The notes beneath the pieces were generated by a model. That model was not told the origin of the DNA. It worked only from the letters and a program-made list of their open reading frames with translations, and ran no database searches. The position numbers and the translations under genes are program-made. A stretch of 64,000 bases of DNA from Gelria sp. Kuro-4 (GTDB lineage Bacteria > Bacillota > DTU030 > DUMP01). This document shows positions 26,843 through 58,660 of the stretch, piece after piece. Position 1 is the stretch's first letter. Every line of letters starts with the position of its first letter. The stretch covers positions 867,001 to 931,000 of the forward strand of contig NZ_AP024619.1 of the NCBI RefSeq assembly GCF_019668485.1, read 5' to 3'.

Positions 26843-26871
26843 TTGCCAGCGGCGGGAAGTTGTATTACAAT
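26843..26871 (+). promoter_or_regulatory. Sigma-A promoter of the serine operon
   Basis: TTGCCA (26843-26848) and TACAAT (26866-26871) with an optimal 17-bp spacer stand just ahead of the T-box leader. Confidence 0.75.
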
Positions 26872-26877
26872 AAGTCA

Positions 26878-27117
26878 CAATACCAAGAGCGATGCGGGGA
26901 ACAGTAGGAGGGTTTTCCTTCCAAGAGAGCCGGTGGTTGGTGCAAACCGGCGAAGCGAAGCCCTTCGAATCCATCCCCAAGCGGGCGGCCGAAGCCTAGT
27001 AGGCCGGTACGGTTGATACCCGTTACCGTATCCAAAGAAGGTGCCCACGTGCGGCACCAAGCTGGGTGGCACCGCGGGAAGGCCTCTCGCCCCATATCAG
27101 GGGGCGGGGGCTTTTTA
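26878..27117 (+). promoter_or_regulatory. T-box riboswitch, probably serine-specific
   Basis: The leader has the Stem I distal signature AGAGAGCCGGTGGTTGGTG ... CCGGC and the antiterminator T-box core CTGGGTGGCACCGCGGG (27061-27078). An intrinsic terminator follows (GCCCC ... GGGGCGGGGGC, then TTTTT, about 27088-27116). The specifier loop segment GAATCCATCC on the 3' side of Stem I places UCC, a serine codon, in the reading position. The bulge UGGC would pair with a tRNA ending in GCCA, fitting the G discriminator of tRNA-Ser. Uncharged tRNA-Ser would open expression of the downstream serine genes. Confidence 0.9.
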
Positions 27118-27157
27118 ATTTACCCAGAGATCAGCGCAAGGAAGGAGAGAGATTCTA

Positions 27158-28315
27158 ATGCAGGGAAAGCAGCACCTATTCATTCCAGGGCCGACGCCCG
27201 TTCCGCCCGAGGTGGCGGCAGCCATGACGCGGCCGCTCATCGGCCACCGAAGTTCAGAGTTCGCTTCTCTGCAGCGATCTCTCGTGGCGCAGGTGAAACA
27301 GGTTTTCCAGACGGAAAACGACCTCTTTATCTTTTCTTCCTCCGGCACAGGAGCCATGGAGGCGGCGGTGGCCGCCGGCGTGCAGCCGGGCGAGCGGGTG
27401 CTCGCCCTGGTGACCGGCCACTTCGGCAACCGCTTTGCCGCCGTCGCCGAGCGCTGGGGGGCCCGGGTGGAGCGCCTGGAGTCCACCTGGGGTGAGCCCT
27501 TCGACCTCGAGGCCGTCAAGGAGGCGCTGGCGCGCGGGCCGCTGCCGAAGGCCGTCCTGGCCACCCACAACGAAACCTCCACCGGCGTGGTGAACGACAT
27601 CGCCGGCCTGGGCGCCCTGCTTAGGGATACGCCCGCCCTCCTCATGGTGGATGCCGTGAGCAGCATGGGCGCCATGGACATCCGGACCGATGAGTGGGGC
27701 GTGGACTTCATGCTCACCAGTTCCCAGAAGGCCTTCATGCTGCCGCCGGGCCTGGCCTTCCTGAGCGTCAGCCCCAAGGCCTGGCAGGCCGTCGAGGCGG
27801 CGGCGCCCCGCAGCTTCTACTTCGACCTTCTGGCCTGGCGCCAAAGCGGGGCCAAGGGCTTCTCGCCCTGGACGCCCAGCATCGCCCTGCTCTACGGCCT
27901 GGAGGCGGCGCTGGCCCGGCTCTTCGCCGAGGGCCTGCCCGAGGTGTGGGCGCGCCACCGCCGCTACGCCCGCCTGGTGCGGGCCGGCCTTAAGGGCATG
28001 GGCCTCGAGCTTTTGGCCGCCGACGCGTGCGCCTCGGCCACGGTCACGGCGGCGCGCACCCCGGGCGTCCCGGCCGACGAGGTGCGTGCCCTGGCGCGGC
28101 GCGAGTACGGCCTCAGCCTGGCCGGCGGCAAGGGGAAACTCGCAGGGGAGATCCTGCGCTTCAGCCACATGGGCTACGTGGATGAGCTGGAGCTTCTCGG
28201 GGCGCTGGCGGTACTGGAGCTGGCATTTGCCCGGCTCGGCTTTCCAGTGAAGCCGGGGGCCGCCGTGGCGGCGGCCGAAGAAGAACTCCTTACGGGAGGT
28301 GGCGGGCGTGGCTAA
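27158..28315 (+). CDS. Class V aminotransferase, probable phosphoserine/serine-pyruvate aminotransferase
   Basis: The 385-residue PLP enzyme has the class V fold signatures: F-I-P-G-P-T-P-V-P near the N-terminus, S-S-S-G-T-G-A-M-E-A near residue 65, and the PLP lysine in T-S-S-Q-K-A-F-M near residue 190. Related proteins are annotated serine-pyruvate or serine-glyoxylate aminotransferases. Control by a serine T-box and the neighbouring serA indicate that it makes phosphoserine from 3-phosphohydroxypyruvate. GGAAGGAGAG lies ahead of the ATG. Its stop overlaps the serA start by 8 bp. Confidence 0.9.
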   Translation: MQGKQHLFIPGPTPVPPEVAAAMTRPLIGHRSSEFASLQRSLVAQVKQVFQTENDLFIFSSSGTGAMEAAVAAGVQPGERVLALVTGHFGNRFAAVAERWGARVERLESTWGEPFDLEAVKEALARGPLPKAVLATHNETSTGVVNDIAGLGALLRDTPALLMVDAVSSMGAMDIRTDEWGVDFMLTSSQKAFMLPPGLAFLSVSPKAWQAVEAAAPRSFYFDLLAWRQSGAKGFSPWTPSIALLYGLEAALARLFAEGLPEVWARHRRYARLVRAGLKGMGLELLAADACASATVTAARTPGVPADEVRALARREYGLSLAGGKGKLAGEILRFSHMGYVDELELLGALAVLELAFARLGFPVKPGAAVAAAEEELLTGGGGRG

Positions 28316-29288
28316 GGTTCTCTTACTCGATAACGTCGCCCGTGAAGGGGCGGAGGTCCTGGAGCGGGCCGGTCATACAGTGGAGGTGCGCAGCGGGCGC
28401 CTGACGCCCGAAGAGCTGGCGCGGCGCCTGGAGGGCTGCGCGGGGCTCATCGTGCGCAGCGCCACCCGGGTGACGGCGGACGTTCTCGCCGGCGCGCACA
28501 CGCTGGCCGTGGTCGGCCGGGCGGGGGTGGGCGTGGACAACATCGATGTGGCGGCGGCCAGCCGCCATGGCGTACTGGTGGTTAACGCCCCCGAGGGCAA
28601 CACCACGGCGGCGGCGGAGCATACCATTGCCCTTATGCTGGCGCTGGCCCGCCACATCCCCCAGGCGGTTGCCGCCCTGCGCGCCGGCCGCTGGGAGCGG
28701 CAGGCCTTCCTGGGAGTGGAGCTGGCCGGGAAAACCCTGGGCATTCTGGGGCTGGGCCGCGTCGGCACCAAGGTGGCGGCCCGCGCCCGGGCGCTGGAGA
28801 TGCGCGTTCTAGCATATGATCCCTATGTTTCCCCCGAGGAGGCCGGCCGCCGGGGAGTGGAACTCACCGGGCTCGAGCGCGTGATTAAAAACGCCGACTT
28901 TCTCACGATTCACCTGCCCCTTACCGCCGAGACGCGTGGGCTCATCTCAGCGACGGCCTTGGCGGCCATGAAACCGGGGGTACGCATTATCAATGCCGCC
29001 CGCGGCGGGATTGTGGATGAAGCCGCCCTGGCGGCGGCGGTGAAAGCGGGACGGGTGGCCGGCGCCGCCCTGGACGTGCTGGCCCACGAGCCCTGCACCG
29101 ACAGCCCGCTCCTGGGCCTGGACAACATCATCATCACCCCGCACCTGGGGGCCTCCACGCGCGAGGCCCAGGTGCATGTGGCCGTCCAGGCGGCGGAGCA
29201 GGTGGCGGCTGCCCTGGCCGGCGGCCGCCCGCGGTACGCCCTCAACTGGGATGAGGTTAGGGGCTGCCGGGCGGCCCGCGCCATCTAG
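28308..29288 (+). CDS. serA: D-3-phosphoglycerate dehydrogenase, short form
   Basis: SerA oxidises 3-phosphoglycerate to 3-phosphohydroxypyruvate, the first step of serine synthesis. The NAD-binding motif G-L-G-R-V-G-T-K-V near residue 147, N-A-A-R-G-G-I-V-D-E near 230 and the catalytic His in I-T-P-H-L-G-A-S-T near 280 are present. At 326 residues it lacks the C-terminal ACT or intervening domain, so it should not be feedback-inhibited by serine through an ACT site; control may rest on the T-box. The GTG at 28308 is chosen from GGGAGG (28294-28299); the in-frame GTG at 28299 overlaps that site. Confidence 0.93.
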   Translation: MAKVLLLDNVAREGAEVLERAGHTVEVRSGRLTPEELARRLEGCAGLIVRSATRVTADVLAGAHTLAVVGRAGVGVDNIDVAAASRHGVLVVNAPEGNTTAAAEHTIALMLALARHIPQAVAALRAGRWERQAFLGVELAGKTLGILGLGRVGTKVAARARALEMRVLAYDPYVSPEEAGRRGVELTGLERVIKNADFLTIHLPLTAETRGLISATALAAMKPGVRIINAARGGIVDEAALAAAVKAGRVAGAALDVLAHEPCTDSPLLGLDNIIITPHLGASTREAQVHVAVQAAEQVAAALAGGRPRYALNWDEVRGCRAARAI

Positions 29289-29302
29289 CGGGGAGGGAAA
29301 GC

Positions 29303-29944
29303 ATGGGTACACGGGTAATCCTGGCGCGCCACGGGGAAACCAGGTGGAACCTGGAGGGCCGTTTTCAGGGGCAGCAGGACACAGAGCTCTCGCCCCGCGG
29401 TTGGGAGCAGGCCCACCGCCTGGCCGCGGCTCTGGCGCCTGTATCCCTGGCCGCCGTTTATGCCAGCCCGCTGGCGCGGGCGCGGGAGACGGCGGCGCTG
29501 GCGGCGGGAGCGCACGGGCTCAAGGTGGAGCTTATCCCGGCCTTCCGGGAGATCAGCCACGGCAGCTGGGAAGGCAGGCGGCATGAAGAGGTGGCAGCGG
29601 CGGACGGCGAGCGCCTGCGGCTCTGGAAGACCCGGCCGGAACGCGTGACCATGCCGGGCGGGGAAAGCCTCAAGGAGGTAAGGGAGCGGGCCTGGCCCGC
29701 CCTGGCCGCCCTGGCCGCGCGGCACGCCGGAGAGACCATCCTGGTGGTGGCGCACGACGCGGTGAACAAGGTACTCCTGGCTGCCGCACTGGGGCTGGGG
29801 GAAGAGGCCTTCTGGCGCATCAAGCAGGACAACGCCTGCCTCAACGTGCTGGAAGAGGCGGCAGGCGGCTTCCGGGTGGCGCTCCTTAACAGCACGGCGC
29901 ATCTGGGGTACCTGGTGTCGGAGCTGGAGCAAAAGGCGTTGTAG
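29303..29944 (+). CDS. Histidine phosphatase family protein, probable phosphoserine phosphatase
   Basis: The 213-residue protein has the phosphoglycerate-mutase/histidine phosphatase signature A-R-H-G-E-T-R-W-N with His10 as phospho-acceptor, and a second active-site His in V-V-A-H-D-A-V-N near residue 150. The family includes cofactor-dependent mutases, cobalamin phosphatases and the metal-independent phosphoserine phosphatase known from Hydrogenobacter. Its place directly after the aminotransferase and serA, under a serine T-box, makes phosphoserine phosphatase the most economical reading, because it completes the three-step pathway. GGGGAGGGAAAG lies upstream. Confidence 0.82.
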   Translation: MGTRVILARHGETRWNLEGRFQGQQDTELSPRGWEQAHRLAAALAPVSLAAVYASPLARARETAALAAGAHGLKVELIPAFREISHGSWEGRRHEEVAAADGERLRLWKTRPERVTMPGGESLKEVRERAWPALAALAARHAGETILVVAHDAVNKVLLAAALGLGEEAFWRIKQDNACLNVLEEAAGGFRVALLNSTAHLGYLVSELEQKAL

Positions 29945-45611: not shown

Positions 45612-46135
45612 CATGTGCGCCCGGCATGGGCGCTGTCTCTAGGGTGCAAGTCCCGAACGGCGAGGGTAGCAGTAGCCGTAGCTTAAGGCAAGGGTGTCCA
45701 CCGCGAGGTCGGGTACCCACCGAAGGTGGGTGCTGAAGGAAGCCGGCGGCAAACCTCCGGCCCGAGGACCACGAACCCCAGGCGAGGCTAGTGGCAGCCG
45801 GATGAGCGTGCATGACAACGCAAAGTCGCGGCTCTCGAAGGCTGCCAAGAGTATATGGGGCGGGTAGATGGAGGGAAAGACAGCGTCCTTACCCGGGGCG
45901 GGGACCCACCGGAGGTGGGTGCTGTCGGTACGCCAGGGGTACTGGCAAGCCGGGTCGAGAGGCCCGGTTGAACCGGCAGGAGTCAGCAGAGGGCATAGTA
46001 CCTGGAACGAAGAGCGATGCACGGCCCGGCTAGTGAGGCACTGCCAGACGAAAGAGGCAGCAAACGGATAGGCCGGACCTAAACAGCGCACACCCGGCCA
46101 GGAAAGGCCCGAACATCAAGTCAGAGGTGAACCCG

Positions 46136-57463: not shown

Positions 57464-58660
<1,197 letters not shown>

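Follow-up and report, generated by a model that had tools for sequence, protein, structure and literature searches.

The stretch analyzed here, a window of 64,000 nucleotides, covers positions 867001-931000 of the single-contig, 2.88 Mb genome of Gelria sp. Kuro-4. Within 26843-29944 of the window, a T-box leader is followed by genes for a class V aminotransferase of the SerC3 type (serC3), a D-3-phosphoglycerate dehydrogenase (PGDH; serA), and a histidine phosphatase (psp). The sequence makes it very probable that this is a serine biosynthesis operon, serC-serA-psp, that is switched by transcription antitermination and ends in a PspA/SerB2-type phosphoserine phosphatase. A preliminary description of this DNA gave the same coordinates, which are correct, and read the genes as a class V aminotransferase, a serA lacking the ACT domain, and a histidine phosphatase that complete a three-step serine pathway. 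Pfam matches bear out this gene content, and the three-gene operon fits the pathway. The operon and its own leader sit between a flgJ-like rod-binding gene and fabZ, and when the interval preceding fabZ was scanned against Rfam at a low threshold, no match came near any gathering score. The features are as follows.

26843-26871, + strand: sigma-A-like promoter TTGCCA-17-TACAAT (10/12 matches; 1 found versus 0.3 expected in shuffles)
26883-27097, + strand: T-box leader RF00230, from Stem I to the antiterminator (114.3 bits, E 1.6e-24)
26970-26972, + strand: specifier codon UCC (Ser), in the context GAA-UCC-A (same codon in 6 relatives)
27067-27070, + strand: UGGC of the antiterminator bulge, complementary to the GCCA of tRNA-Ser with G73
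27084-27120, + strand: intrinsic terminator, a 10-pair stem (27084-27110) and T run, sharing the 3' part of the antiterminator
27158-28315, + strand: class V aminotransferase of the SerC3 type, predicted phosphoserine aminotransferase (PF00266, 1.7e-32)
28308-29288, + strand: serA, D-3-phosphoglycerate dehydrogenase without ASB and ACT domains, type III build (TIGR01327 match)
29303-29944, + strand: histidine phosphatase, predicted PspA/SerB2-type phosphoserine phosphatase (PF00300, His_Phos_1, 5.4e-66)
29558-29560, + strand: codon of His86, at the position of PspA His85, in the motif EISHGSWEG

The cmscan match to the leader covers the full T-box model (positions 1-219), exceeds the gathering score of 93 bits, and is the best-scoring of the 23 T-box matches in this genome. 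The leader contains the T-box sequence, a specifier loop with a serine codon, a bulge that would pair with a G73 tRNA end, and a terminator. Four terminator-like sites were found versus 2.4 expected, and the minimum free energy of 27066-27125 is -28.4 kcal/mol. To check the specifier register, other T-boxes of the genome were compared with the genes that follow them, as recognized by eye from the translations; examples are ileS with AUC, alaS with GCC, pheS with UUC, and metS with AUG. The serS T-box of the same genome also has a UCC specifier and a UGGC bulge. No further Ser-specific T-box was found among the 23 as far as they were readable, so the serine T-boxes here are those of this operon and serS. 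All seven genomes of the order that have the orthologous serC, this one included, carry a UCC T-box upstream of it, and the bulge is UGGC in six and UGGU in the seventh (L070). G73 is present in all eight tRNA-Ser genes that were read, which come from other genomes of the phylum and none from this one. These data agree with the earlier proposal that the UCC specifier and UGGC bulge fit tRNA-Ser, and the register check supports serine specificity. The leader appears, from its sequence, to sense uncharged tRNA-Ser.

The third gene encodes a protein with the core of histidine phosphatase branch 1. Arg9, His10, Gly11, Arg59, Glu83, and His151 are invariant in a four-sequence alignment, and His86 aligns with His85 of phosphoserine phosphatase 1 (PspA) from Hydrogenobacter thermophilus. 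Work by Chiba in 2013 reportedly points to the importance of PspA His85, and hydrolysis by PspA is metal-independent. PspA is the nearest solved sequence (4ij5, 2.4e-33), with PhoE close behind (1h2e, 1.3e-32). The fold is predicted with a mean local confidence (pLDDT) of 95.3, and the nearest fold is again H. thermophilus phosphoserine phosphatase (4ij6; Z 32.6, root mean square deviation 1.3, 202 residues). Other fold matches are YhfR/PhoE (Z 30.8), an Aquifex riboflavin-pathway phosphatase (28.5), an Entamoeba phosphoserine phosphatase (28.1), and a CobC (25.8). The preliminary description placed this protein in the position of the canonical SerB, and no SerB elsewhere in the genome exceeds the TIGR00338 cut-off (best match 40.3 of 144.15 bits). 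The same cut-off is reached in none of the eight genomes of the order, this genome included. The protein is most likely a phosphoserine phosphatase of the PspA/SerB2 type.

Linkage of the phosphatase to serine genes was examined with a profile made from five operon-borne copies and run over 398 genomes of the phylum. Thirteen genomes, spanning six families, score at least 256 bits, and the next one scores 240; the G006 score comes from a gene truncated by the end of its contig. Five of these genomes contributed to the profile and the other eight did not, and the G062 gene is identical in sequence to that of G016, which leaves less independent support than 13 genomes would suggest. His occupies the PspA-85 position in every one of the 13, and the gene stands directly after serA in each of the 12 with visible upstream DNA. 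The downstream gene is serS in eight genomes and fabZ in the window's genus (three genomes) and in G006; the G327 contig stops at this point. cmscan was run on 11 such loci and matched a T-box in every one, eight times above the gathering score and three times (L328-L330) below it at 83.0-85.6 bits. Across the set, the order is T-box, SerC or SerC3, SerA, phosphatase, and then SerS or FabZ. The 12 lower scorers that were fetched, a sample of many, carry Tyr, Phe, or Cys in place of the marker His, and the flanking DNA examined contains none of serA, serC3, and serS. Both lower scorers tested with NCBIfam, which are of the Phe type, pass the cut-off for alpha-ribazole phosphatase (cobC). The His label requires two changes on the tree, and it may have one origin. 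A simple rule for annotating the histidine-type enzyme is suggested by His at the PspA-85 position combined with operon linkage, which would separate it from CobC-like homologues. Many Firmicutes lack a recognized phosphoserine phosphatase; the available text of PMC9026213 counts 450 gut genomes without any of four alternative ones.

Some operons of the serC-serA-phosphatase-serS form have a further RNA element. In L194/L332 (G016/G062) and L327 (G100), the serine T-box is immediately preceded by a glycine riboswitch aptamer (RF00504), which places two RNA sensors in series.

The second gene, serA, has a GTG start at 28308 that was picked by inspection and overlaps the serC stop. The product matches positions 6-314 of the 525 in TIGR01327 (414.1 bits; search begun at 28329) and ends there, and only two 2-hydroxyacid dehydrogenase domains exceed their Pfam cut-offs. 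The catalytic domains are present and the ASB and ACT domains are absent, which is the type III PGDH arrangement. The best solved relative is the catalytic part of human PHGDH, and SerA is the best match to the PGDH model in the genome. The model gives 17 match rows in the genome, some of which are fragments of one gene. Two adjacent PGDH-like 2-hydroxyacid dehydrogenases lie behind a metallo-beta-lactamase-like gene at G000:C1:953596-955966 (L020, L023).

The first gene is less easily named by profile. In the three related operons without SerC3 that were tested (G100, G379, and G327), its place is taken by a canonical SerC above the TIGR01364 cut-off. The canonical enzyme filling the first slot marks that slot as the one for phosphoserine synthesis. 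We infer from family and gene order that the window aminotransferase is the SerC3 of PMC9026213. Two other class V aminotransferases were seen in this genome. One, at window 57515-58642, is 35% identical to the first gene of the operon, and the other, at G000:C1:2526307-2527413, adjoins two tandem opposite-strand T-boxes that precede a leuA-like gene.

Several observations weigh against these assignments, and most of them concern the phosphatase. Its score against the NCBIfam PspA equivalog model falls short of the cut-off (148.6 of 350 bits), and NCBIfam barely separates the protein from other types, with scores of 146.7 of 162.9 bits for cobC (TIGR03162) and 150.3 of 326 for RNase H/acid phosphatase. 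In a scan of named genomes, neither serA nor serC3 occurs beside any of its 80 nearest relatives within the flanking DNA covered, at most 5 kb and frequently less, which is why linkage was sought with the profile of operon-borne copies. The marker His is carried by 46 of these 80, 44 of them cyanobacterial, and the marker is thus not tied to serine genes outside these operons; a cyanobacterial phosphoserine phosphatase annotated as a mutase, Slr1124 of Synechocystis, is described in the accessible part of PMC12077085. Nine HAD-domain matches of this genome exceed the Pfam cut-off. Four sister genomes (G003, G004, G005, and G007) have the same T-box serC-serA with no phosphatase gene there, and no PF00300 match was found in G004 (95% complete) or G007 (93%), metagenome-assembled genomes being incomplete. 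Another phosphoserine phosphatase is probably present in G004 and G007 and could exist here too. These points could be taken to mean that the operon phosphatase is CobC, or a general sugar-phosphate or riboflavin-pathway enzyme that merely sits in the operon, and that a HAD phosphatase of the YsaA kind dephosphorylates phosphoserine. The closeness of the cobC and PspA scores, the nine HAD matches (no search aimed at YsaA was made), the four sisters, and the use of a related fold in Aquifex riboflavin synthesis, as given in the accessible part of PMC12051542, fit this alternative. We nevertheless consider it unlikely. The second His_Phos_1 protein of the genome, which has Phe at the marker, scores slightly higher for cobC (151.5 bits, also below the cut-off), the Phe-type homologues pass that cut-off, and among the top scorers of the 398-genome scan the window type is linked to serA wherever upstream DNA is visible and carries His throughout. 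CobC as the best reading was rejected on the TIGR03162 score, the marker residue, the serA linkage, and the Phe-type homologues. The histidine phosphatase most likely works like PspA, as predicted from its sequence, without being filed as an NCBIfam PspA equivalog. The preliminary description called the phosphatase unusual: the histidine type and the phosphoserine phosphatase reading are supported by the profile, linkage, and fold, and the kind itself is not novel, being that of PspA and SerB2.

The aminotransferase also fails the canonical SerC cut-offs (PRK05355, 20.2 of 253 bits; TIGR01366, 28.7 of 401.65), which counts against a phosphoserine pathway. Its best solved relative, 6pk1, is annotated as a serine-glyoxylate aminotransferase, and its best NCBIfam match, BhcA, is below the cut-off of that model. 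A non-phosphorylated route, with SerA as a hydroxypyruvate reductase and the first enzyme as a serine-glyoxylate aminotransferase, would suit these matches, but it is quite improbable given that SerA is nearest to PGDH catalytic domains and is the leading PGDH match of the genome, that canonical SerC occupies the same slot in the three tested relatives, that the serine T-box points to synthesis, and that the available text of PMC9026213 proposes its SerC3 as a phosphoserine aminotransferase. Least probable of all is that feedback is kept in trans by a separate ACT protein, which would leave the loss of ACT from SerA without regulatory meaning. Two stand-alone frames do match the C-terminal part of the PGDH model, but their sequences and neighbors, judged by eye, identify them as the beta subunit of L-serine dehydratase beside its alpha subunit and as an MgtC-like membrane protein. 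A free ACT subunit for SerA was rejected on these grounds. The operon is best read as encoding the phosphorylated pathway with a SerA that probably has no ACT partner.

The relationship between the T-box and the ACT domain was surveyed in 107 loci: a single serC3 locus for each of 100 phylum genera, six relatives from the order, and the window. The 100 phylum loci are from the better-scoring genera among the matches listed. In these 100, a T-box was recorded as a 14-base core with at most two mismatches within 900 bases, and the covariance model was applied to the loci given to cmscan. "Full-length SerA" refers to a reading-frame length of about 517-540 residues and not to a domain search. SerA is encoded downstream in 103 of the 107 loci and not in the other four, and the L290 SerA is truncated where its contig ends. 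A T-box core was found in 69 of the 92 examined loci with full-length SerA and in 10 of 10 with a complete but short SerA. Nine of the short-SerA loci belong to the window's class, and the tenth (G089) is from another family. Nine loci were read in the window's class; every one has a T-box, identified by covariance model in seven and from its core sequence in two, and encodes a SerA about 320-340 residues long. Thus, a T-box together with a full-length, ACT-type SerA is the common state among the examined loci, and the T-box is no general substitute for feedback. A general replacement of ACT feedback by the T-box was rejected for this reason.

The operon relatives of the window SerA mostly carry enzymes of type I length, so its present form looks like a loss from type I. 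The loss of ACT most likely arose within a T-box operon; it occurred in the window's class and apparently once elsewhere, in G089, a possible second independent loss. The preliminary description proposed control by tRNA charging in place of feedback inhibition. This stands insofar as ACT is lost in this class, and it does not extend to serC3 loci in general. With ASB and ACT missing from SerA, tRNA charging acting on transcription is probably the main serine-dependent control that remains. Whether an ancestral two-tier control by T-box and ACT feedback collapsed to tRNA charging alone in the window's class is, in our judgment, evenly balanced. If it did, serine flux would be set by the charging of tRNA-Ser, and the first enzyme would not respond to serine itself. 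T-box operons that have lost ACT allow control of a pathway at transcription alone to be compared, in nature, with two-tier control of the same pathway.

A sequence-based model of the operon follows from its parts. When serine is scarce, uncharged tRNA-Ser, probably the GGA isoacceptor, would base-pair with the leader at the UCC specifier of Stem I and, through its 3'-terminal GCCA, at the UGGC bulge. The antiterminator would be stabilized, and RNA polymerase would read into the three genes. With charged tRNA-Ser, the terminator would form. SerA would then oxidize 3-phosphoglycerate, the SerC3-type aminotransferase would make phosphoserine, and the histidine phosphatase, with His10 as the catalytic and His86 as a substrate-side residue, would free serine, probably without a metal.

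Other T-boxes seen in the survey depart from the form found here. Eight of the 80 serC3 loci with a T-box core combine a GGC specifier, a Gly codon, with the Ser-type UGGC bulge (L224, L227, L230, L236, L241, L244, L261, and L282), five as GAAA-GGC-A and three with another prefix. The counts are rough, the specifier-reading script having placed the expected codon on top in 15 of the 23 T-boxes of this genome. Both tRNA-Gly genes that were read have U73, the GCC one being read only in another genome. A G-U pair might let tRNA-Ser(GCU) read the GGC specifier, or such a leader may respond to both tRNAs. Five of these loci (L227, L230, L236, L261, and L282) have no second T-box core before serS, so serS may also be under the control of the GGC leader. 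In the leuS T-box leader, which belongs to the same genome as the window but lies outside it (L061:298-557, G000:C1:1360897-1361156; specifier CUC, gene identified by eye), the inverted repeat AAAGATG/CATCTTT encloses an entire tRNA-Ala(GGC) gene, which separates Stem I from the T-box sequence. Processing of this tRNA would split the leader in two. Elsewhere in the window, two group II intron domains match at 45716-46026 on the + strand (RF02001, 107.4 bits; RF01998, 54.7 bits).

Each part of the operon is already known, namely a Ser T-box on serA, SerC3, SerB2/PspA, and type III PGDH. A literature search with partial coverage found no paper that joins a T-box with a histidine-type phosphoserine phosphatase. 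The comparisons that follow draw on the accessible parts of the cited papers. The serA of Paenibacillus polymyxa WLY78 likewise has a Ser T-box and an intrinsic terminator before a serine biosynthesis gene, and its T-box regulation was shown with mutants and lacZ fusions (PMC8002221). In that species, AGC serves as the specifier and serC is located at another site, whereas here the specifier is UCC and serC, serA, and the phosphatase gene stand together. SerC3 is a class V aminotransferase beside serA, as in the window (PMC9026213). The same paper describes SerB2 as a PF00300 protein, 32% identical to the H. thermophilus enzyme, that is proposed as a phosphoserine phosphatase and co-located with serA in Peptoniphilus, likewise as here; its main text does not mention a T-box, and its passages on SerB2 give only the serA neighborhood. 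Type III PGDH consists of the substrate- and nucleotide-binding domains only, as does the window SerA, and is not feedback regulated by serine according to a review (PMC6300728). The PspA/iPSP1 of H. thermophilus (4ij5, 4ij6) is the best match of the window phosphatase in both sequence and fold, and the two have the C-terminal motif LN.T.HLG in common. They are 38% identical in the fold alignment, and a long separate branch divides them in the tree.

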